From a virus, in IMG/VR virus record IMGVR_UViG_3300011116_000373, positions 1-25,845 of that record: a stretch of DNA of 25,845 bases; one strand, 5' to 3'. Positions within the stretch are counted from its first letter, which is position 1. Each line of letters opens with the position of its first letter. This document shows, one piece after another, positions 1 through 24,173 of this stretch. Below the pieces are notes generated by a model. It saw only the letters and a program-made list of their open reading frames with translations, searched no databases and was not told the DNA's origin. The translations under genes and the position numbers were made by a program.

Positions 1-364
1 ATGTTACGTCTGTATCTGTAATTGAGCGAGTGATGGGAAAACCGTAAGTAACTTTTGAACCAACGGGGAAGTCTTGTTCGTTTGCACCACCAGTAATGTC
101 AATATATGATTGAAGTTGTGTTCCACTCCTTACGGCAAATGCTGAATTTGTAAGATTAAAGTTATAGTCGGAAGTTTGAACGTTTCCGATTGGTGCATCA
201 CTGCGCAATACAGGTGTGTTATTAAAGAATACATCTTTGAGTAACGCCGTATTGTAGTTATCTGTGCCCCACACATAGTTACGTGCGGATGGAAAACCCT
301 CAATTTCGCCTTCGCTTAAAAGGTCAAGAATACGAATAAACTGTTTGGAATTAAGATCTGTCAT
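1..364 (-). CDS. Tail tip / host-specificity protein J-like, N-terminal part only
   Basis: This is the N-terminal 121 residues of a lambda gpJ-like central tail-tip protein; the rest lies beyond the left edge. I translated it by hand from an ATG at 364-362 and found it open to position 1. It begins [20 protein letters not shown] and continues with a segment ending LKDVFFNNTPVL. The 'LLSEGEIEG...NNTPVL' signature is typical of the gpJ N-terminus. Its start overlaps the stop of the upstream I-like gene (TAATG), and the order L-K-I-J is the classic lambda tail-tip order. In the family this protein forms the tip hub and contacts the host receptor through its C-terminus, which is not visible here. 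Confidence 0.88.
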   Translation of the reverse strand, partial: MTDLNSKQFIRILDLLSEGEIEGFPSARNYVWGTDNYNTALLKDVFFNNTPVLRSDAPIGNVQTSDYNFNLTNSAFAVRSGTQLQSYIDITGGANEQDFPVGSKVTYGFPITRSITDTDVT

Positions 365-1011
365 TAGATGTCTCCAGCATCAACACCAGCAGAAATTACG
401 ACACTGCCAGTTAGTATTTCCCCGTAGCAAATCGGTACTGCAACGCCTTGACGGCTGACATTCTGTATTCCTGAAAAGGAATAGCTTTTTGATGGGTCGG
501 TTTGATCTCCTGGCATTTTGGGCACTGGTGACAGCAGTTGTGCAACACCACTAAGCGCCAAAGATAAACCAATGGCACCAATAGCGCTTGAAACTGCTGC
601 CGAAACAAATCCAGTAGCAACTGCACCACCAGCAGCATGGGCCAATCCGGCACCTAAACCCAAAAATCCTCCACCTGCTGGAGCCAAAATAATTGCAGTA
701 GCAATTAAAGCAATTCCAGCAAGAATCTGCCCAAATCCAGATTTGGCACCTGCAATAACGGGAACAATACGAATAACGTCCGTTTTGCTTGTCGGGTAAT
801 GCAGTTGCTCAGGCTCGTCTGCAATAGCTAGATCAGTTTTGCCTACACCAACCTTGTAAAACTTGTCTGCCATGTGTTCCCGTAACTTCGGAAAATTGGC
901 AACTAAAAATCTGATGGCTTCAGCTGGCGTTTTAACAGCTGCCTTGAAGCTGCGTTGTCCCAGGAACTTAGCGAGTGATCCGTAAACCTTGATAACGCGC
1001 ATCACTGGCAC
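364..1011 (-). CDS. Tail assembly protein I-like
   Basis: A 215-residue protein in the position of lambda gpI, between the K-like and J-like genes. The first ~90 residues read as a compact alpha/beta domain (starting [20 protein letters not shown]), as in I-family proteins, where it resembles ubiquitin-like folds. Residues ~95-165 are Gly/Ala-rich and hydrophobic, followed by a polar tail with '[21 protein letters not shown]', a pattern seen in phage tail-tip assembly proteins. In lambda, I is needed for tail-tip assembly but is not found in the mature tail. It overlaps the K-like gene by 10 bp and the J-like start by one base. The ATG at 1011 is taken; a second Met is four residues in. Confidence 0.85.
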
Positions 1012-1712
1012 CTACTGGAATGACGAAGCACACGTCCGGTGTTCTTCTGATAATAACCACCGTAAACATCCCTTGAACTAAGCCTACCGGGTATGTGGTG
1101 AAGCATCAATTGTTGACCTACATAGACAGCGCAATGGTTTAGGCCGGGACTGTGCATTGAGATCAGCAGCAGGTCTCCAAACTGGATGTCATCACGGTCC
1201 ACCTCGACAAAGCCTGCTGTTTTCCAGCAGCGATCAAACATGGGATCGGCGTCAAAGTCAGCTTGTAGCGTTGGCCTGGGCCAGTCGGGCAACTCAAGGA
1301 ACCAACAATCTGCATACCATTGACGGGCTAACGACCAGCAATCCTGTACGCCCCAGACAAACTCACGCCCTAGTAATGGCGCTTTGTAGCCGCATGGCTC
1401 GCAACCATCCCATTCTTTGGTGCCTGGGTTGACGATGTGCCAGGGCAGGCCCGAGTGCTCGCAGGCCGCACGATCAGCATCGCTGGGTGCTGGTGATGCC
1501 TTGGGATGGCTGTGGACAATGGCGGCTATTTCTCCCGCGTCTTCGGCAGCAGCAAAATCCTCAGGCGATAAAACGAAGAAATCGTTGTCTTGTGCGAGGT
1601 TTTTGCAAGGCCAATACCGTTTCCGGCCTTTGACAATCACAAGCAACCCGCAAGCCTCTCGCGGCGCTTCTGCAAGCGCATGCCCAACTGCGTCATCTTG
1701 CCATTTAGCCAT
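1002..1712 (-). CDS. Tail tip protein K-like: JAB/MPN metalloprotease plus NlpC/P60 peptidase
   Basis: A 236-residue two-domain protein like lambda gpK. Residues 1-~105 form a JAB/MPN domain with JAMM-type residues visible: Glu19, the HSHP motif at 67-70, and Ser77/Asp80. Residues ~115-235 form an NlpC/P60 domain with the likely catalytic Cys125 (context VQDCWSLAR) and His193 (context [10 protein letters not shown]). In this family the tip-located peptidase is thought to help with tip assembly or with local peptidoglycan cleavage at infection. It overlaps the L-like gene by 8 bp upstream and the I-like gene by 10 bp downstream. Both catalytic sets look intact. Confidence 0.93.
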
Positions 1713-3333
1713 AAAACGCTCCTACGCTTGGGAAACTGCCAAACGGTATTTCGTTGTTGGCACCAAAGCGCGCCTTACAACTTGAAACACGCTTACCGCA
1801 TACGTCCTGCAGTGCAAGACCAGTCGAGCTGACAACCCGTGGTTCTACGCCACTGACGTAGCCCGATGCCCAGAGTGGAACATTTGCGCTGTTGTAATAG
1901 ACCAAGTTTCCATCGGACTGGAGCGCTAGGTAATTGTTGCTGTAGCCGCTTCCGGTGCGCACGTAATACACTGCCGCAACAGATTCAAACGCTCCGTAGC
2001 TTCCGGGCGATACGACTGGATCGCCATTCCTCCAGGGGTTGTTTGAGTTGACTGTGACTTCGGCATCGAAGTATTGGTTGACTCTCCACAGACCTGAACT
2101 TGCTGTGATGGTGCCCTTTGCCATTGGTACACCAGAACCACCGTAGTCATTGTCAACTACTGGTGCTCCTTGGGTCCAGCTGTAGTTGACGGTTAATCCT
2201 TTGGCAGCAAAAGCATCTTTATATTGCTGCGACAATGGCGAAGATGTAGCTGTGTAACTGATGGTTATAGATTTGTTATTAACTGTAAATAATTTGGTTG
2301 CTGTGCGGCTTTGGTTAGGGTAACTATCGGCGTTGCCTAAAACCTCATAGAAGAATGCACCGGCTCGGCCCGTATTGACAGTCGTTTGCTGTCGAAAGTC
2401 CATGTGCCGAATGGCTGTTGGAGTGCCAAGATAATCTGTATTGGTTGCCCAAATTGCATCTGGCCCTTTATAAAGTACCAAGTTGCCATCGTTTTGATTC
2501 CACAGCCTGTATGTATCTGATTCGCCACGGATTGTATTACTTGCCCAAACAACTACATTGGCTTTATTGTACACAACGATATTACCGTCAGTTTGCATAA
2601 CTGCTTTATACCAGCGGTTACTAGATGTAAGTTTTTGTTCTGGAAGTAATGCTGTTGCTACAGATAAAGTGCCTGTTCCAGCGGGAAAGTTAGGCGCGGG
2701 GATAGTATTGATGGGATTGTCGTTTTCGTCAAAGTAATTGTTACCCGCATAACCACATTCGGGACCGCGATACTTCCATTGACAAATGTTGGCAATGCAC
2801 TGACGTTTAGGACTGCGTACCCCAGCGAGGTCAAAAACTGCTGCGAGTTCAAATTCAACAACAGCTAAATTTTCATTTGCTTTTCTATCAACATAGTAAA
2901 TTTCACGAGGCATCTCAGCAGTTGGATCTGGCGTACCGTATGGATTTGTATTATTTGGAAAATTAACACTATCCAGAAATCTACTCATGGTGCGAATACG
3001 AGTAAACTTTGCACCAGTTAGATCATTGCCTGTTGTAATTTCATTGACACTCAGTAGTAATGCAGAAATACTTCCAAAAACATTAGAGATACGAACTGTT
3101 GGTCTTGGAAGTTGACCATTGCCGGAATACTCAAAACCATCTACTTCAATGGGTAAAGCTGAGTAAATTTCACCAGCCCAGTAAACATCTCCTGACGGTA
3201 GTTTTTTATTGACACCACCATGAAATCGAATGGTTTCTGCGCTTCCATGTAGATCTTGAACAAGCTGCAATTCATAAAGCTCAATGATTGCGTATGGTGA
3301 ACTCTTGAGTAATTCTTGAAATATCTCGCTCAT
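1705..3333 (-). CDS. Minor tail protein L-like with a large inserted bulb-lectin-type region
   Basis: A 542-residue protein in the L position, against 232 in lambda. Residues 1-~200 look like a normal gpL N-terminus, and the last ~35 residues like its C-terminus. Lambda gpL binds a [4Fe-4S] cluster through four cysteines spaced 9 and 7 apart; here C184/C193 and C512/C519 keep exactly these spacings, but ~318 residues separate the pairs instead of ~22. The insertion carries three bulb-type (mannose-binding) lectin motifs: [11 protein letters not shown] (~246), [12 protein letters not shown] (~279) and [12 protein letters not shown] (~471), each followed by a W-A-S or W-A-T strand. Between the second and third lies a polar Ser/Asn/Tyr-rich stretch I do not recognise. 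L sits at the tail tip; the insert may be a surface-exposed sugar-binding module. Confidence 0.88.
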
Positions 3334-3668
3334 GGTTCAAACACCTGCGTAAATGTTGCTGTAATTGTTGCTCTATTCAGGTAAGGAATGGTTTTTGCCC
3401 ACTGACTGCAAATCCATTTGTATGACGTGTTTGTGTCAGGCGGGGTCCAGTCAAACGATTCAGCACCAGCACGAGCATCTAAAAATGCCTCGATGGTGTC
3501 GGCGTCAGTTTCTGACACTTCCCACGTAAGACTCCAGCTTTTAGGGTTTTGGTTTAAGCCCACTACCAATCTTTGGCTGTAGCCATCGCCAAACTGAACA
3601 CTACGGACTCTAGGCTGACTGGTTTTTTGAGCACCGTAGGTTGGTGCGATAGTGGGAAATGTAGCCAT
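3330..3668 (-). CDS. Minor tail protein M-like
   Basis: A 112-residue protein between the tape measure and the L-like gene, the position and length of lambda gpM. Visible family features are an N-terminal 'SVQFGDGYSQR' segment and 'PKSWSLTWEVSE', typical of M-type tail-tip proteins. In lambda, M joins the tail tip complex between the tape measure/tube and L. The ATG overlaps the tape measure stop (TAATG), and the 3' end overlaps the L-like start by 4 bp, so all three are probably translationally coupled. Confidence 0.9.
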   Translation of the reverse strand: MATFPTIAPTYGAQKTSQPRVRSVQFGDGYSQRLVVGLNQNPKSWSLTWEVSETDADTIEAFLDARAGAESFDWTPPDTNTSYKWICSQWAKTIPYLNRATITATFTQVFEP

Positions 3669-5811: not shown

Positions 5812-6344
5812 CTACCTACTACGTTGCTTGGCTTTGTCCATTTCCTCGCGTTCGCGTTTGCCCTTTATCTCGTAGTACGCAGCAAAATGGATGAACTCTG
5901 CATCCGTCAATTCTTGCCGAAGCCGACTCACCGTCATGCCTAGCTCGGTAGCTAAAAACATTTCAAAGTAAAGCCAGCTATCGGCCTCTAGTCGTTTTTT
6001 GCTTCTTCCAGCGATTCCGGTCCACCAAGACCAAACAGGAATAGTTCCAGTTCGTTCAGAACTGATTCCGGCAATTCGCGTTGCAGTTTGGCTGCATCAG
6101 CTGGTGCAAAGGCTTTCTTGCCATCTTCCAGTTCAGCCATCTGGCACAGCAGCTGCGTGCTGATATCCAGCGCTTCATCAGTACCGGCAAGACCTGTTGC
6201 GCGTTTGCGGTCAGCTCTGGTAATCGGTTTGAAATAAAGCGATAGCACCACAGTGCCGTCTTCTTTCTTGATGTTGAATTGACGCCGCTGGTTAAGGTCA
6301 AAAGCCCCGGTGAGCAGATCAACGGGGCGTGAAGAGACAGGCAT
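5812..6344 (-). CDS. Tail assembly chaperone GT fusion, made by -1 ribosomal frameshift
   Basis: The G frame (6344 to 5988) is continued in the -1 frame by a 60-codon open stretch ending at TAG 5814-5812. The shift site is the canonical heptamer A AAA AAC (minus strand, 6000 to 5994), in phase with the G frame as GCA AAA AAC, two codons before the G stop. The added segment starts RLEADSWLYFEMFLATELGM and includes 'TDAEFIHFAAYYEIKGKRERE', like the T domains of many siphophage chaperones. The shifted product would be about 177 residues. In lambda-like phages G and GT at a fixed ratio bind tape measure and tube protein to guide tail assembly. The site and continuing frame are seen directly; that shifting occurs is inferred. 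Confidence 0.88.
5988..6344 (-). CDS. Tail assembly chaperone G-like, unshifted product
   Basis: A 118-residue protein between the major tail proteins and the tape measure, where phages of this type encode the tail chaperone. It has an N-terminal beta-rich part ('KKEDGTVVLSLYFKPITRAD') and an acidic C-terminus ending in EEAKND. It ends two codons after the A AAA AAC heptamer that gives the longer GT form. The ATG at 6344 overlaps the stop of the downstream-copy tail protein gene by one base, indicating coupling. It probably binds the tape measure before the tube polymerises. Confidence 0.9.
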   Translation of the reverse strand: MPVSSRPVDLLTGAFDLNQRRQFNIKKEDGTVVLSLYFKPITRADRKRATGLAGTDEALDISTQLLCQMAELEDGKKAFAPADAAKLQRELPESVLNELELFLFGLGGPESLEEAKND

Positions 6345-6763
6345 TAGATCGAGGTAGTAATGGCACCGTTCATGGTGAAGTTAACCGTCACCACTTCAAG
6401 CTCACCAACCGTAGCACTGTAATCAGTGGATGTGATCACAATGTTGCCGGTGATTTTCTTGCCGCCGGTTTCATCAAGATACAACTCAACAAAGGCGTTA
6501 CCTTCATCAGTTGCAGTATTGACATCCTTGATCAGGTCAAGTTTGTCGCCAGCGCTAGGGGCGTCGTACATGATTTCCATGCTGCCGCTACCTGCAATAA
6601 GGCCACCGATATTTGCCTTATAGGTTGCACCTTGAGCGGTAGTCTCAAGTACATCCTTTTCAACGGTCATTGACCAGGAACGCACGGCAGCAATTTCAGA
6701 AATGCCACCACTGCTGTCCTTATCAAAAAAGACCGTACCTTGTTCGCCGCGGTAAAAAGCCAT
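6344..6763 (-). CDS. Major tail protein paralog 2
   Basis: A 139-residue protein, about two-thirds identical by eye to the neighbouring 138-residue gene. The two share their first nine residues (MAFYRGEQG), the central block 'EKDVLETTA-GATYKANIGG', and 'DYSATVGELEV' near the end, and both end ITTSI. Length, beta-rich character and position (tail terminator, tube, chaperone, tape measure) identify tail tube proteins. It is separated from its twin by two bases. The differences concentrate in residues ~10-25, ~66-80 and ~105-112, likely loops. Which copy builds the tube, or whether they mix, cannot be read from the sequence. Confidence 0.88.
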   Translation of the reverse strand: MAFYRGEQGTVFFDKDSSGGISEIAAVRSWSMTVEKDVLETTAQGATYKANIGGLIAGSGSMEIMYDAPSAGDKLDLIKDVNTATDEGNAFVELYLDETGGKKITGNIVITSTDYSATVGELEVVTVNFTMNGAITTSI

Positions 6764-6765
6764 GA

Positions 6766-7182
6766 TCAGATGGAGGTAGTGATAGTGCCGCTGGTTACAA
6801 AGTTACAGGTAATAACCTCCAACTCACCAACGGTAGCGCTGTAGTCAGCAGAAGTGATCAAACCAGTAAAGCTGATCTTTTTGGTGCCAGTGGTATCCAG
6901 GAACAGTTCAAAGGTTGCCGTACCGCCATCAGTGGCAGTATTAGCAGCTTTGATGAAGGTATTGGTTTCATCAGCGCTACTGGCCGTGTACATGAGTTCA
7001 ACGCTGCCAGAACCAGCGATCAAGCCACCGATATTGGCTTTGTAAGTAGCGCCAAGAGCAGTAGTTTCCAGTACATCCTTTTCAATGGTCATCGACCATG
7101 ATCGGGTGGATGCAATGGTGGTATTAGCAGAACCAGCATCGTCAAATTTGACGGAGCCTTGTTCGCCTCGATAGAAAGCCAT
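6766..7182 (-). CDS. Major tail protein paralog 1
   Basis: A 138-residue tail tube protein, first of a tandem pair in the direction of transcription. It shares with its neighbour the N-terminus MAFYRGEQG, the motif RSWSMT-EKDVLETTA, and the C-terminus ITTSI. It follows the tail terminator gene by two bases. In siphophages this protein stacks as hexameric rings around the tape measure. Both copies are intact and neither shows decay, so both are probably used. Confidence 0.9.
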   Translation of the reverse strand: MAFYRGEQGSVKFDDAGSANTTIASTRSWSMTIEKDVLETTALGATYKANIGGLIAGSGSVELMYTASSADETNTFIKAANTATDGGTATFELFLDTTGTKKISFTGLITSADYSATVGELEVITCNFVTSGTITTSI

Positions 7183-17677: not shown

Positions 17678-18718
17678 TTAGTTGCGAATTTGAACTGGCA
17701 TAACGAGATATGTTTGTCCTTCTACGTTAGCTGGCGTTAACACTACAGGAGTTGTAGCGGTGTTGGCGGATAGTGTAACAGATTGATGGCCTTTGAAGGC
17801 TTTAAGGCCATCGAGGAGGTAGTGGACATTAAATGCCCAGGTGCCAGAACCAGTGGCTTCAACTTTAAGAAGCTCCTTGCCGTTGTTGGCATCAGCTTCA
17901 GCGGTAATGGCAATAGTGCTATTGACGAGTTCAAGTTTGATGACTGAGTTATGGGCTTCAGCGATCAATGCAACACGCTCTAGGGCACGGGTCAAACGGT
18001 GACGATCAGCGGTGATGGTGTTTTTGAAGCTGGCGGGGATAAGTGCTGCCACGTCAGGGTATTTGCCATCGAGGATGCGGCTGTAGAGGGTGATGCCATC
18101 TTCGGTGGTAATGACAGCCTGGCCGCGTGCGTGAGCAATGGTGACGGTTTGATCCTGCAGAAGACGCATGGTGCTGGCTGGCAGTACCAGATCAAGGCCA
18201 TCAGGCAGGTCAATCGCCATACGCATAAGGCGATGGCCGTCAGTGGCTTCCATGTAACCAGCGGCAAGGTGAATACCAGCTAGGAGCGCCTTGCTGATAT
18301 CAGTGCTGCAGCATGGAAGACAGGCACGAACACCAGCAGACAGCATCAGCTCAGTGCCATCAGCCTCGACCACTGGCAATGCGGGGTAATCCTCCGCATC
18401 CATCGCTGCAAGGCCGTACGTGCCGCTAGAGGCCGTCAAGCCCCCATCGTGGAGGGTGACCACCTCGCCATCCTCAAAGCGGCTCACAAGCCCCGCTAGC
18501 AGCCTGTGCGGTAACGCAACGGTGCCGGGTGTCTCGACTGCTGCCGGGATGGTGACGCTGATGCCAAGGTCGAGGTTGAAGCCGGTGACGGTCATAGCAC
18601 CATCGGCGGCAGCAATCAGGCAACAGCTGAGTATGGGGTGGCTGGTGTTGGTGGCAATAGCAGGTGCAATGGTGCGTAAGGCGTGAGTGAGGTCGCCTTG
18701 TGTGGTGATGAGTTTCAT
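17678..18718 (-). CDS. dnaN: DNA polymerase III sliding clamp (beta subunit)
   Basis: A 346-residue beta clamp, slightly shorter than the usual ~365-375. The three clamp domains can be followed: N-terminal 'HALRTIAPAIATNTSHPILSCCLI', middle 'AGIHLAAGYMEATDGHRLMRM' (the conserved TDGHRL motif), 'YSRILDGKYPD', and the C-terminal 'QTYLVMPVQIRN', equivalent to the YVIMPMRL end. It would clamp a polymerase to DNA and bind other partners via its hydrophobic pocket. A phage-encoded clamp lying directly before the terminase genes is unusual; it may hijack the host Pol III. No phage DNA polymerase is seen in this window. Confidence 0.93.
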   Translation of the reverse strand: MKLITTQGDLTHALRTIAPAIATNTSHPILSCCLIAAADGAMTVTGFNLDLGISVTIPAAVETPGTVALPHRLLAGLVSRFEDGEVVTLHDGGLTASSGTYGLAAMDAEDYPALPVVEADGTELMLSAGVRACLPCCSTDISKALLAGIHLAAGYMEATDGHRLMRMAIDLPDGLDLVLPASTMRLLQDQTVTIAHARGQAVITTEDGITLYSRILDGKYPDVAALIPASFKNTITADRHRLTRALERVALIAEAHNSVIKLELVNSTIAITAEADANNGKELLKVEATGSGTWAFNVHYLLDGLKAFKGHQSVTLSANTATTPVVLTPANVEGQTYLVMPVQIRN

Positions 18719-19190: not shown

Positions 19191-19460
19191 TTTAGGCCAT
19201 GTCCCACCTCAAGTGCAGGTAGGGCAGAGGTAGGGCAGGCCAAAACCCAGTGCCTGACTGGCATCTCCCTACCTACCCTACCTTCCCTACTTAGAGTAAT
19301 AAATAAAGAAAGAGAGGGGAAGGAAAGGGCGCGTAGGGGATTCTTGGCAAGAGGTAGGGCAGGGGCAGGTAGGGCAGCAAACCCGACATCAGTTGCAACG
19401 CAGCGCATCTCAGCAATTCAGAGGTAGGGCAGCTACCCCACCCAGGTAGGGCAGGTCTTG
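19191..19460. repeat. Six perfect copies of AGGTAGGGCAG with an AT-rich core; candidate origin or operator array
   Basis: Plus-strand copies of AGGTAGGGCAG start at 19217, 19228 (abutting), 19352, 19367, 19422 and 19444. Between the second and third lies a pyrimidine-rich segment (19267-19290) with two inverted CCCTACCT cores and a further CCCTAC, then an AT-rich stretch (19291-19315) and a purine-rich G-run segment. Most of it lies in the 265 bp without a credible gene between the RHH gene and the VapE/primase gene. The last copy lies inside the 3' end of the latter. Iterons plus an AT-rich unwinding patch beside a replication protein resemble an origin. Protein-binding operators or G-quadruplex-forming DNA are alternatives. 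Confidence 0.65.
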
Positions 19461-21514
19461 CGGTACTTGTATTCCCTACTCCCCCCTGTGCTGACGCGGT
19501 AACGCTTAAAGCCAAGCCGCTTGAGCACGTCGGCCACCTGCATCTGATCTTGTCGTGTTTGGCGCTCAACAGGCTTTTTAATGGCATCTGTTAGTAACTT
19601 TTCTGTGGTGATGTCATCCATTGGATGTGTTCTTAACCAGGCTTCAATTTCAGCCTGCCAGGGATTATCAACGACATAAGATTCGTTCTCGCTTGCAAGC
19701 ATTGCCTCTAGTGCAGCAGGCAATCGGCTGGTTTCACCTTTACGGTATTCAGCAACAGCAGCGGACCATATTGCATCGCGTTCTAGTAATAGCGAAGCGG
19801 TGTCGATTTGATCTGATTGAGTCTTGGTTGTGGGGATCACCCAAAAGCGGCGGTTACCAGTTTCATCAACCAAAAAGCCGGTGGTGCGGTTAGTGGTACC
19901 GACGATGATTCCACGGCGTGGGAATGCTTCAGTTGATTTGCCATAGGGCACGCGGAACATATCAACCGCCTGCGATAAGAAGGCTTTGACTTGACCGGCG
20001 TGCTTACGATTTGTCACATGGTCCAGTTCTGCCCACTCCATAATCCACGAGCGGTGTAATACCATTAGGTCATCTTTGCTGCTGATATCACCAAGCGCAT
20101 CACTGAAAAAGTCACCAGCGAGGCAGTTCCAGAATGATGATTTGTAAGCGCCTTGGTCGCCCATGATGACGCAAGCGGTGTCGTGTTTGCAGCCAGGGTT
20201 GTAGGCGCGGGCGACTGCGCCAATAAGGGTGCGCTTTAGCATCTCGTCGTAGATGGTGCCGGGCTTGTCACCGACGCGGAGATAAGCCGATGCCAGCGCT
20301 TCGATGTAGGCAGGTTCTACGGTGGCGGCTACCCGGTCGAGGTATTCGACAACGGGGTCATAGGGCGACTCATGGGCTACTTGGACGATGCAATCAAGGG
20401 CGATTTCCTTGGATACCTTGTAGCCCATCTGTGCAAGGGTGAGATAAAAGCGCTCAGCACCTTCGATGGCAGTGCCGTCAACTTCGATGCGTTGGGTGAA
20501 GGTGTTGTAACGGTATGCGCTACCACCATCACGTAGGAATGCCAGCAGTTCTGCAGCATTCATCGGTTGCAGTTGCGCCAATGGAGCGCCGCCAGTAGCA
20601 ACAGGCTCTGGCTTAGGCTTGCCGGCACCACCAGCCCGCCGCGGCTCAATTGCTTCGCGGCTACGCCAACCGTCGCGCTTGGCTAGCTGACCGAGGGTGC
20701 CAAGGGTGATGCCACCATCAGGATTGAAGCCGCGCCACTTGTGTTCGCAGTCTCCGGGCTTGAACTTAGACGACTGGGCTGACCATGAGATCCAGTCTTG
20801 CAGGAGGCTGTCATCTGCAAGGCTGTGTAGGGCCATGCCTACCTCAAGCCATTCGTCGTAGTCATCAGCCCTCGCGGGCGATAGCGCTTCAAGGTATGAC
20901 CGTGCTCTAGCGGCATCGCCACCGCTAACGGCTAACGGCAACAATGGGGCAGGCTGCACTGCCTGCCTGAGCATCCGTGCAATGAGATCTGCTGGCGCTT
21001 CGGCAATGGGCAGGTCTGACGGAGAGCGACCTGGCAGCCATGTGTAACCAGAGGTAAGAGGATGGGCGCCAGCTACGACAGACTGGCAGCCATCCCAGCG
21101 CAGTTCTACTTGCTCGGGTTTGCCTTCAACATCGACGACGCCGGTCTTAAAGCGCCGCGTGCGGATTTCGGACCAGTATTGCTTGGGTACTTGGTAGATG
21201 ACCTGAAACCGCCCGTCGCGGCCTGAGGTGACAGTCCAACTAGGCGGCAGGGAGGACACGGGCATCCCCCAGGACTCCAGCATTTGCGATGCGGACTTGC
21301 CGTCATGGTCAAGAAACAGCAGACCGCCAGACGGTGTGCCGCAGCAGACGCCAATAGCACGGGCGCGGTTGGCTTTGATTTCTTTGCCGAGTTCAGCTCT
21401 GGATATGTGGTTTTTCTGCCAGCCGTCCATGTAGGGACGCTTCTGGCCATCTACGGCGACGTAGGACCAGTGGCGCGGCAGTGCAGCTAGCTGTTGCAGC
21501 AGTTCACTGCTCAT
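19433..21514 (-). CDS. Primase-polymerase / PriCT_2 / VapE-type helicase fusion
   Basis: A 693-residue replication protein. Residues ~10-185 are a bifunctional primase-polymerase domain with the D-x-D pair in LLFLDHDG (D69, D71) and 'SVVAGAHP' (His151). Residues ~205-285 fit PriCT_2 ('YLEALSPARADDYDEWLEVGMALH', 'KFKPGDCEHKWRGF'). Residues ~390-600 form the VapE-type ATPase with Walker A GDQGAYKS (452-459), Walker B IMEWAELD (491-498), and 'GTTNRTTGFLVDETGNRRFW' (539-558). It would start and unwind phage replication. Within Walker A the residue before Lys is Tyr, not the commoner Gly. The start overlaps the RHH gene (ATGA). Confidence 0.92.
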   Translation of the reverse strand: MSSELLQQLAALPRHWSYVAVDGQKRPYMDGWQKNHISRAELGKEIKANRARAIGVCCGTPSGGLLFLDHDGKSASQMLESWGMPVSSLPPSWTVTSGRDGRFQVIYQVPKQYWSEIRTRRFKTGVVDVEGKPEQVELRWDGCQSVVAGAHPLTSGYTWLPGRSPSDLPIAEAPADLIARMLRQAVQPAPLLPLAVSGGDAARARSYLEALSPARADDYDEWLEVGMALHSLADDSLLQDWISWSAQSSKFKPGDCEHKWRGFNPDGGITLGTLGQLAKRDGWRSREAIEPRRAGGAGKPKPEPVATGGAPLAQLQPMNAAELLAFLRDGGSAYRYNTFTQRIEVDGTAIEGAERFYLTLAQMGYKVSKEIALDCIVQVAHESPYDPVVEYLDRVAATVEPAYIEALASAYLRVGDKPGTIYDEMLKRTLIGAVARAYNPGCKHDTACVIMGDQGAYKSSFWNCLAGDFFSDALGDISSKDDLMVLHRSWIMEWAELDHVTNRKHAGQVKAFLSQAVDMFRVPYGKSTEAFPRRGIIVGTTNRTTGFLVDETGNRRFWVIPTTKTQSDQIDTASLLLERDAIWSAAVAEYRKGETSRLPAALEAMLASENESYVVDNPWQAEIEAWLRTHPMDDITTEKLLTDAIKKPVERQTRQDQMQVADVLKRLGFKRYRVSTGGSREYKYRKTCPTWVG

Positions 21515-21748: not shown

Positions 21749-21919
21749 ATGAATCCGATTTATCGCATCACATACCAACGCCCTTGGGGCGAATGTGTGG
21801 TCAACACCACTCAATTTGCTGACGAGGCAGAGTTGCATATTGGTTTTGCAAGGTCATACAAAGGATGCGAGCTTCTCAAAATTGAAGATGTAACCAAAGA
21901 GTATTTACCGGAATCATGA
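21749..21919 (+). CDS. Small unknown protein, first gene of the plus operon
   Basis: A 56-residue protein found by hand: MNPIYRITYQRPWGECVVNT, then 'TQFADEAELHIGFARSYKGCELLKIEDVTKEYLPES'. It reads as a small alpha/beta protein, probably one strand pair, a helix and a strand. Its stop overlaps the IbrA-like start (ATGA), so it could serve as a coupled leader gene. The family is not recognised. It is 31 bp downstream of the promoter-like element. Confidence 0.75.
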   Translation: MNPIYRITYQRPWGECVVNTTQFADEAELHIGFARSYKGCELLKIEDVTKEYLPES

Positions 21920-23235
21920 GCAGAACCTATCTAAAACAGAATGTGTATGACGCTTCTATGGAGCGCCTTGATTTTATCTTTGAGCATTTCACGCGGGTTT
22001 ACGTTTCGTTTTCTGGCGGCAAAGACAGCGGCGTTCTTCTGAATCTTGTCTGCGATTACATAAGAGATCGCAAGCTGTCAGTCAAGGTCGGCGTCCAAAT
22101 CATGGACAATGAAGCCAACTACAACCACAGCAAGGAGTTCATGCATCGCATCCTCGAAGCCAACCACGACATCCTGGACATCTATTGGTGCTGCCTCCCC
22201 ATCACACTGCCTTGCACTGTCAGCTCTTATGAAATCGACTGGCAATGTTGGGGCGAAGCTGATCGTCATCGTTGGATTCAACCTATGCCGCAGCAAGATT
22301 ACATTGTGAACCTGGAAAACCACCCTTTTGGCGATTTGTTTATTGAAAACATGGACTACGCCACTTTCTGGGACATGTTCGCTGAGTGGTATAGCCAGGG
22401 TGAGCCGTGCGCCAACCTAATCGGTATCCGCACTGTTGAGTCGCTAAACCGATTCCGGGCAATTCTGAACCAAGACAAGGAAACCATGCTCGGACGCATG
22501 TGGACTAAGAAAAACACGGCGCATACCTACAACTGCTATCCAATCTATGATTGGCGCACGGAAGACATTTGGACCGCTAACGCCAAGTTTGGGTGGGATT
22601 ACAACAAGCTCTATGACGTGTTTTACATGGCTGGCATCCCGATCAAAAAAATGCGAGTTGCCTCGCCGTTTATGTCAGAGTCCAAATCCAGCCTCGCCAT
22701 GTATCGGGTAATCGATCCGCAAATCTGGGCAAGACTTTGCGCCAGGGTTGGCGGTGCCAACTTTATGGCTACCTATGGCAAACAACTTGATTACAAATCC
22801 TTCAGGTTGCCGCCAGGCCATACTTGGAAATCTTTTGTTAAGTTTCTGTTGGCTACATTGCCGGACCAGTCAAACGCAAATTTTAAGCAGCGCTTCATCC
22901 AGTCAATCCGTTACTGGGGCAGGGTGGGGCGCGGTCTTCCTGAGACCATTATTGAAGCTCTTGATCGTATCGGCATTCGCTTCTACATTAATGGCATTAC
23001 GCTTCATGGTGGCAACAACCTGCGCCGTGTTGTGATCAAGGTGCCACCTGATCACCTTGATGATTTGCCATGCCACAACAGCATGGTTACATCGTGGAAG
23101 CGGTTTGCAATCACCGTGCTCAAGAACGACCACACTTGCAAATACCTTGGTTTAGCTCCAACACAAGAGCAACAGCGCCGCCAAAAATCAATCCAACGCA
23201 AGTACAGCCAAGTCCTTAACCGTTCTGCCAAATGA
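21916..23235 (+). CDS. IbrA-like PP-loop protein (PAPS reductase family with DUF3440-like region)
   Basis: A 439-residue protein. The PP-loop SGGKDS at 33-38 binds ATP/phosphate in the PAPS reductase/ATP-pyrophosphatase family. Then follow 'GIRTVESLNRFRAIL' and 'NCYPIYDWRTEDIWTANAKFGWDYNKLYDVFYMAGIPIKKMRVASPF', 'WARLCARVGGANFMATYG' and 'LPPGHTWKSFVKFLL', which I recognise from the DUF3440/IbrA group. The last 50 residues contain 'TSWKRFAITVLKNDH' and an Arg/Lys/Gln-rich end. IbrA and IbrB were described as regulators of immunoglobulin-binding proteins in E. coli, and pairs like this occur in phages and mobile elements. The reaction is unknown; true sulphate reduction is unlikely since no other assimilation genes are present. 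Confidence 0.88.
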   Translation: MSRTYLKQNVYDASMERLDFIFEHFTRVYVSFSGGKDSGVLLNLVCDYIRDRKLSVKVGVQIMDNEANYNHSKEFMHRILEANHDILDIYWCCLPITLPCTVSSYEIDWQCWGEADRHRWIQPMPQQDYIVNLENHPFGDLFIENMDYATFWDMFAEWYSQGEPCANLIGIRTVESLNRFRAILNQDKETMLGRMWTKKNTAHTYNCYPIYDWRTEDIWTANAKFGWDYNKLYDVFYMAGIPIKKMRVASPFMSESKSSLAMYRVIDPQIWARLCARVGGANFMATYGKQLDYKSFRLPPGHTWKSFVKFLLATLPDQSNANFKQRFIQSIRYWGRVGRGLPETIIEALDRIGIRFYINGITLHGGNNLRRVVIKVPPDHLDDLPCHNSMVTSWKRFAITVLKNDHTCKYLGLAPTQEQQRRQKSIQRKYSQVLNRSAK

Positions 23236-24173
23236 AAATCTTTAACGCCGCCCAGCTTTCCAGTGACCGCTTTGTTCAATGTCCTCGCGGTGGCTTTACC
23301 AGTCATCGCCTTGTCATAGAAACTGATGGCATGGGCTACAGCATGACCAAAACCGTCATTCACCCTGGCAAGCCGCATCGTTGGCATTATCAACACCACC
23401 TTGAAACCTGCTATTGCGTCAGCGGAAAAGGTTTGTTAATCAATGAAGCAACACAAGAAATCGTCGCGGTAGGCCCTGACGTGACCTACGTACTCGACAA
23501 GCACGATGCTCACACATTTGAAGCATTGGAGCCCACTACGTTGATCTGTGTTTTTAATCCACCTCTTAAGGGAGACGAGTTGCACGATGCAAACGATTCT
23601 TATCCTTGGCGATCCCCGGTCTACTCTGTACGCAGCATTCCTATCGAGAAAGTTACCGCCAACGATTACAACCCCAATTCTGTGGCGCCGCCTGAAATGG
23701 CACTACTCGAAACATCGATTTGGGAAGACGGCTACACACAACCTGTCGTTGTCGTGCATGATATCGAACGCGACCTTTATGTGGTCGTTGACGGTTTTCA
23801 CCGATACTTGACCCTTAAGAACAGCCAACGCATTCGTGAGCGCGAAGGTGGTCGATTGCCAGTTGTTGTGCTTCGCAAGGAATTGCACGACCGTATGGCG
23901 TCAACCATCCGCCACAATCGTGCTCGCGGCTCGCACAACATCGAGCTGATGAGTGTGATCGTTGCTGAGCTGATTGAGATGGGCAAGGGCGACGCATGGA
24001 TCTGTAAGCACATCGGCATGAGCCCTGATGAGCTGTTGCGCCTTAAACAAGTGACTGGCCTTGCATCCCTGTTCCTTGGCAAAGATTTCAGCAAAGCATG
24101 GGACGTAGAGCAAATTAACAACGTGACGGAGGATCTTGAGCGTGAAGCTGAAGAGGATCTGGTTGCCCATTGA
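23232..24173 (+). CDS. Fusion of ectoine-synthase-like cupin and IbrB-like ParB/sulfiredoxin-fold protein
   Basis: A 313-residue protein overlapping the IbrA-like stop (ATGA). Residues 1-~126 match ectoine synthase (EctC): DGMGYS (32-37), WHYQHHLETCYCVSGKG (51-67), LDKHDAHTF (88-96), CVFNPPLKGDELH (106-118) and SYP. Residues equivalent to the EctC metal ligands as I recall them (Glu57, Tyr85, His93) are kept as Glu58, Tyr86 and His94, as are Cys106 and Phe108. Residues ~131-313 form an IbrB-like ParB domain with DYNPN (145-149), DGFHRY (187-192), RHNRARGSH (227-235), and a C-terminal HTH-like region 'DAWICKHIGMSPDELLRLKQVTGLASLF'. No ectA or ectB is present, so the cupin probably acts on something else or as a sensor. 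Confidence 0.88.
   Translation: MKIFNAAQLSSDRFVQCPRGGFTSHRLVIETDGMGYSMTKTVIHPGKPHRWHYQHHLETCYCVSGKGLLINEATQEIVAVGPDVTYVLDKHDAHTFEALEPTTLICVFNPPLKGDELHDANDSYPWRSPVYSVRSIPIEKVTANDYNPNSVAPPEMALLETSIWEDGYTQPVVVVHDIERDLYVVVDGFHRYLTLKNSQRIREREGGRLPVVVLRKELHDRMASTIRHNRARGSHNIELMSVIVAELIEMGKGDAWICKHIGMSPDELLRLKQVTGLASLFLGKDFSKAWDVEQINNVTEDLEREAEEDLVAH

Follow-up and report, generated by a model that had tools for sequence, protein, structure and literature searches.

In phage lambda, the minor tail protein L (gpL) binds an iron-sulphur cluster through C173, C182, C205 and C212, and its Fe-S domain is exposed at the outside of the tail tip (PMC10721106). Lambda gpL (8iyk_L) and the F2 pyocin protein 25vf_7 are both made of an HDI domain and an Fe-S domain without any insert, the loop between the second and third cysteines being 22 residues long in lambda. 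Other hub proteins carry more in this place. In the RcGTA hub, the ion-binding segments 143-167 and 250-263 flank an oligosaccharide-binding domain at residues 168-249 (PMC7296036), and the hub of roseophage R4C has an oligosaccharide-binding domain inserted in its Fe-S domain in the same way (PMC10276861). The upper baseplate protein gp50 of JBD30 has cysteines 147, 156, 238 and 245, so that the pairs are spaced as in lambda, while the loop is enlarged to 81 residues; the passage on it does not call this loop a lectin (PMC11445458).

Carbohydrate-binding modules are also present in a different structural tail protein, the evolved Dit of lactococcal siphophages (PMC6669499, PMC10688798), in which such an insertion promotes adsorption to EPS-bearing cells (PMC10688798). 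Bulb-type lectins of the beta-prism II fold are known from plants as uninterrupted proteins of about 110 aa, for example gastrodianin and the snowdrop and garlic agglutinins (1xd5, 1msa and 1kj1). In bacteria, pyocin L1 and putidacin L1 are free tandem-lectin proteins whose QxDxNxVxY sites target sugars of bacterial LPS (PMC3916391). This lectin class binds D-rhamnose or D-mannose; pyocin L1 binds LPS D-rhamnose, and the monosaccharide affinities measured for putidacin L1 are weak (PMC3916391).

Here we describe a viral gpL with a bulb-type lectin, itself split by a second domain, in the Fe-S domain. The window, i.e. the whole stretch of DNA that was analysed, is 25,845 nucleotides long (IMG/VR record IMGVR_UViG_3300011116_000373). 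Like RcGTA g13 and the R4C hub, its gpL has a four-cysteine Fe-S domain split by an inserted, presumed sugar-binding domain. In those two proteins the insert is an oligosaccharide-binding domain of about 82 aa, whereas here it is a beta-prism II lectin of about 280 aa, a different fold, with a nested domain that is exchanged between viruses. The protein resembles evolved Dit in bearing a carbohydrate-binding module, but it is gpL and not Dit, and the Dit phages infect Gram-positive hosts. It has the fold and sites of pyocin L1 and putidacin L1, but these lack a nested domain and are not virion parts. The whole fold is also common to the plant lectins, which are uninterrupted, unlike that of the window. 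The parts and the insertion site are known, and they form a coherent combination of which no report was found; among the papers searched, none links minor tail protein L with a lectin. A known lectin fold thus occupies a known insertion site with which, as far as these papers go, it had not previously been described.

The gpL gene and its neighbours

The ORF at 1705..3333 (-) encodes a lambda-type minor tail or hub protein L of 542 aa. It belongs to the Phage_tail_L family (PF05100; E 6e-56, 189.4 bits against a cutoff of 25) and to TIGR01600 (E 4e-63, 212.7 bits against a cutoff of 70.75), and it matches phrog_18 (E 1.7e-81). Minor tail protein M is encoded directly upstream (3330..3668 (-); PF05939, 5.8e-31). 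Directly downstream are tail protein K with JAB and NlpC/P60 domains (1002..1712 (-); PF14464, PF00877) and then tail assembly protein I (364..1011 (-); phrog_32, 7.7e-48; PF06805). The neighbours M, K and I are shared with lambda, the order M-L-K-I is that of lambda, and the record stops before gene J. Among cultured phages, the window is most closely related to KBS-S-2A and S-H1, two Synechococcus phages with capsid proteins 90% and 81% identical and terminases 81% and 80% identical, respectively. Judging from this relatedness, the virus is likely to have a picocyanobacterial host.

Insertion within the Fe-S domain

The HDI tail-tube-like domain of gpL covers residues ~1-170 (2824..3333 (-)). 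The PF05100 match extends over residues 32-210, and model residues 8-157 align with lambda 8iyk_L (Z 9.6). The N-terminal half of the Fe-S domain follows at residues ~171-212 (2698..2823 (-)) with C184 (2782-2784) and C193 (2755-2757); it is conserved in alignment A1, in 73 relatives and in S-H1 and KBS-S-2A. The C-terminal half, residues 508-542 (1708..1812 (-)), contains C512 (1798-1800) and C519 (1777-1779). It is delimited by a second HMM stretch, by the alignment of residues 199-227 of the F2 pyocin protein 25vf_7 and by A1.

The gpL of the window has five cysteines (179, 184, 193, 512 and 519). As the preliminary description had pointed out, the spacings of the lambda ligands are kept, C184/C193 being 9 and C512/C519 7 residues apart like C173/C182 and C205/C212 of lambda (PMC10721106), so that both proteins have a C-x8-C and a C-x6-C pair. 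Its statement that about 318 residues part the two pairs also holds, against 22 in lambda and in relatives without an insert. With the family and lectin matches, chance does not account for these features. In A1 the insert starts after a conserved YFDExDN and stops before DVCGKR. This places it within the C2-C3 loop, bounded by residues ~212 and 508. Cysteines 1, 3 and 4 are aligned in all 73 insert-bearing relatives and cysteine 2 in 66 of them. The four shifted carriers that were inspected (L131, L136, L139 and L142) have C-x14-C at the first pair instead of C-x8-C, with additional residues around GGADGTxxG.

Full-length gpL was modelled with AlphaFold2 together with 22 relatives. The mean pLDDT was ~85-95 over most of residues 211-500 and below 50 in parts of the gpL core, namely at 149-199 and nearly all of 507-542, cysteine regions included. 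The conserved cysteines and flanking motifs, and the solved precedents of RcGTA and R4C, indicate that both cysteine pairs are likely to meet in insert carriers.

A split bulb-type lectin

With VIA-align, model residues 220-494 were superimposed on gastrodianin 1xd5_D with a Z of 18.2, an rmsd of 1.5 A and 40% identity. The snowdrop and garlic lectins (1msa, 1kj1) ranked below it (Z 14.5-14.7), and phmmer matched the window gpL to the garlic lectin and pyocin L1 at ~1e-13. All 110 of the 110 residues of 1xd5_D were covered, so the predicted insert contains a complete beta-prism II fold. Since 275 model residues span this 110-residue lectin, the lectin is split. Part 1, residues 220-301 (2431..2676 (-)), holds facets 1 and 2 contiguously (pLDDT ~85-94), and part 2, residues 465-494 (1852..1941 (-)), holds facet 3. 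The three QxDxNxVxY motifs noted before are intact: QTDGNIVVY at residues 247-255 (2569-2595), QNDGNLVLY at 280-288 (2470-2496) and QSDGNLVYY at 472-480 (1894-1920). A B_lectin (PF01453) profile search gave E 6e-7 and 30.4 bits, slightly below the cutoff of 32.4, probably because facet 3 is displaced and the domain split. Hence the earlier designation of the insert as a bulb-lectin region was right for the fold and the sugar-site residues and incomplete as to its architecture, because a second domain divides the lectin.

The facet 3 motif is lost in many distant relatives, and L097, L104, L128 and L139 are without any canonical lectin motif. Sugar binding therefore cannot be the invariant function of the insert, and from these sequences it is probably not universal in the insert-carrying group. 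A scan of the genome contigs for lectin relatives gave only two, both weak.

The nested domain

The second domain, residues 302-464 (1942..2430 (-)), sits between lectin facets 2 and 3. It measures about 160 aa, i.e. about half of the insert. Residues 302-466 modelled alone by AlphaFold2 gave a confident structure (pLDDT 87, pTM 0.84). Searches with alignment A2 of the nested domain yielded nothing better than E 0.015 in Pfam and PHROGs and a single weak match (E 0.016) among PDB sequences. When its structure was compared with the PDB, the best Foldseek E was 1.0 and the best VIA Z 4.0, and such a missing PDB match is not proof of a new fold. In BFVD there were two strong structural matches, to the unnamed viral proteins D6PHN5 and D6PFJ6 (E ~2e-6, TMq 0.65). 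The domain was looked for in cultured phages and was not found there. At the loci examined, 115 of the 118 ORFs with the nested domain also encode the gpL core; of the remaining three, two run off a contig end and one, in L143, is complete and stands apart from gpL.

Relatives with, without and with other inserts

When viral contigs were scanned, a homologous insert was present in dozens of gpL proteins, of which the full-length ones are 50-85% identical; all insert carriers are metagenomic contigs. A gpL match was obtained in 1,494 phage records, none of which covered 80% of the window gpL. Close relatives lacking the insert exist (L070-L075 and L077), and that of L070 has the exact lambda pattern C-x8-C-x22-C-x6-C. 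The gpL of KBS-S-2A and S-H1 are also insert-less, with 235 and 233 residues.

Two other arrangements are found at the same site in more distant relatives. In L146 and L150, inserts of 718-736 residues comprise about four tandem lectin units, the nested domain, the last facet and then C-x6-C. In L261, L264, L265, L274 and L279-L282, a third kind of insert of ~185-196 residues occupies the C2-C3 loop, and the two that were scanned had no Pfam match. The C2-C3 loop has thus long taken up insertions and continues to do so. These features suggest that the surface-placed Fe-S domain of gpL acts as a rigid clamp that accepts inserts from none to more than 700 residues.

In the gpL tree, 34 ordinary proteins with lectin and nested domain cluster together (88/99). 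Repeated acquisition of the insert was considered and not adopted; the tree needs only two changes of the lectin-plus-nested label and is compatible with a single origin.

Several gpL variants differ in other ways. In L266 (424-1776 (+)) the loop has the normal 22 residues and about 200 extra residues lie between the fourth cysteine and LPFGSFPGVG, a second insertion site. The gpL of L155 (4414-4986 (-), Cyanophage MED4-117) and L156 (3018-4007 (-), Marine virus AG-345-A17) have lost the Fe-S domain, the PKR motif of the chain being directly joined to EFPS(V/I)GTF. In AG-345-A17 an extra segment seems to lie within the HDI region instead. Cluster-less gpL homologues had already been reported (PMC13243795, which cites Tam 2013).

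Block exchange between near-identical viruses

Between contigs L002 and L008, identity is 99.7% across 3,072 nt on the upstream side and 99.5% across 2,186 nt on the downstream side, whereas their nested domains are only about 50% identical (protein ~51%). In L002 numbering, the coding sequences are identical up to codon 305 and become so again near codon 470, which puts one breakpoint where lectin facet 2 ends and the other where facet 3 begins. With a lectin 99% identical, the nested domain alone changes, and the reading frame is preserved. The L008 allele recurs independently in L086 and the L002 allele in L007 and L056, with flanks 98.8-99.7% identical. Because each allele is present in more than one contig, a single chimeric assembly is unlikely. 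A domain without known relatives is in this way exchanged as a block inside an otherwise constant tail tip.

L002/L008 is the one clean nested-only swap found. Between L049 and L052 the whole insert is exchanged: the core is 94% identical in DNA and the insert 52-67% (nt), identity falling after codon ~200 and recovering after ~475. L032 and L035 differ mainly in codons 341-400, inside the nested domain, which corresponds to a partial swap. Among 73 proteins binned by core identity, average conservation of the lectin and the nested domain was lower than that of the core in nearly every bin below 90%. Since L002 and L008 do not reach the receptor-binding region of J, further changes could have come with the swap.

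A possible two-part adhesin

On balance, the gpL insert is probably a modular adhesin of two parts, with a lectin for sugar and an exchangeable nested domain for specificity. We propose this because of the RcGTA and R4C inserts, the JBD30 loop, the adsorption promoted by the Dit module and the D-rhamnose binding of pyocin L1. Carried in the C2-C3 loop, the adhesin would be displayed on the exterior of the cone-shaped tail tip, and by analogy with lambda three copies are probable. With its three intact sites, the beta-prism II lectin may provide low-affinity, multivalent and reversible binding of a cell-surface polysaccharide, and the nested domain, exchanged by phages as a cassette, may set or tune the surface recognised. 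The conserved lectin facets could then double as anchor and as flanks for homologous recombination. J would remain responsible for irreversible binding and for the release of DNA. The preliminary description had suggested a second, sugar-directed host contact independent of J. The insert carriers retain K, I and J, with a J of about 1,125 codons where the contig reaches it, and since this is the normal length the insert adds to J and does not replace it. The suggestion is partly supported, namely by the predicted lectin fold, the intact sites, the place of the insert and the retained J.

It is also possible, more tentatively, that gpL of this cyanosiphovirus-like group carries a swappable host-range cartridge, in which a lectin scaffold shows an undescribed fold, alleles are recombined via the lectin facets and tail-tip specificity is altered with J and side fibres left as they are. 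If confirmed, the two-part adhesin would be a host-recognition determinant outside J and the tail fibres in uncultured phages of probable picocyanobacterial hosts, with a predicted and testable ligand class.

The first alternative is that the lectin alone sets specificity, as in pyocin L1, and that the nested domain is a replaceable spacer or stabiliser. The three intact sugar sites of the window clade, the known binding of D-rhamnose or D-mannose by the family (PMC3916391) and the tandem lectin expansion in L146 and L150 would agree with it. However, the clearest swap leaves the lectin nearly untouched and changes the nested domain only, and this domain persists in some relatives in which the lectin motifs are gone; we regard a lectin-only adhesin as rather unlikely.

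Less probable still is a structural or protective role without host contact, the insert decorating the tip, shielding the Fe-S cluster or helping assembly with K, I or J. Other phages do carry decorations in this region, and the ~185-196-aa inserts, with no Pfam match, occupy this very site. Against this, the insert-less relatives imply that assembly can generally do without it, and divergence faster than that of the core, with exchange between near-identical viruses, is not expected of a structural part.

The lectin might instead bind a sugar absent from the host. In a further reading, it would attach the virion to extracellular polysaccharide, mucilage or waterborne particles and not to the host cell. 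The weak monosaccharide affinities of putidacin L1 (PMC3916391) make broad polysaccharide binding conceivable, and the remainder of this proposal is conjecture. The tail-tip position and an allele exchange such as host matching would produce both speak against it, so that we give it little credence. Finally, strain mixtures in metagenomic data can give chimeric contigs, but that the nested-domain swap is an assembly artefact is hardly credible when both alleles occur in more than one contig (L008 and L086 versus L002, L007 and L056) with near-identical flanks and the frame kept.

Other genes in the window

Some further genes of the window deserve mention. At 6344-6763 and 6766-7182 (-) are two similar tandem proteins of about 139 aa, the first of which weakly matches the tail tube family PF06199 (E 0.0016); by their similarity, the pair (6344-7182) is a probable duplication of a tail tube gene. 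At 21916-24173 (+), a PAPS-reductase/DUF3440 gene overlaps the next gene by 4 bases, and the product of the latter is a fusion of a cupin resembling ectoine synthase (PF06339, E 9e-36) with a ParB_N domain (PF02195; E 1e-4, which does not reach the cutoff). We take this pair to be IbrA/IbrB-like, with an unusual EctC-like fusion. A DNA polymerase III beta clamp is encoded near a Prim-Pol/PriCT/VapE-like replication protein (17678-18718 (-) and 19433-21514 (-), respectively).
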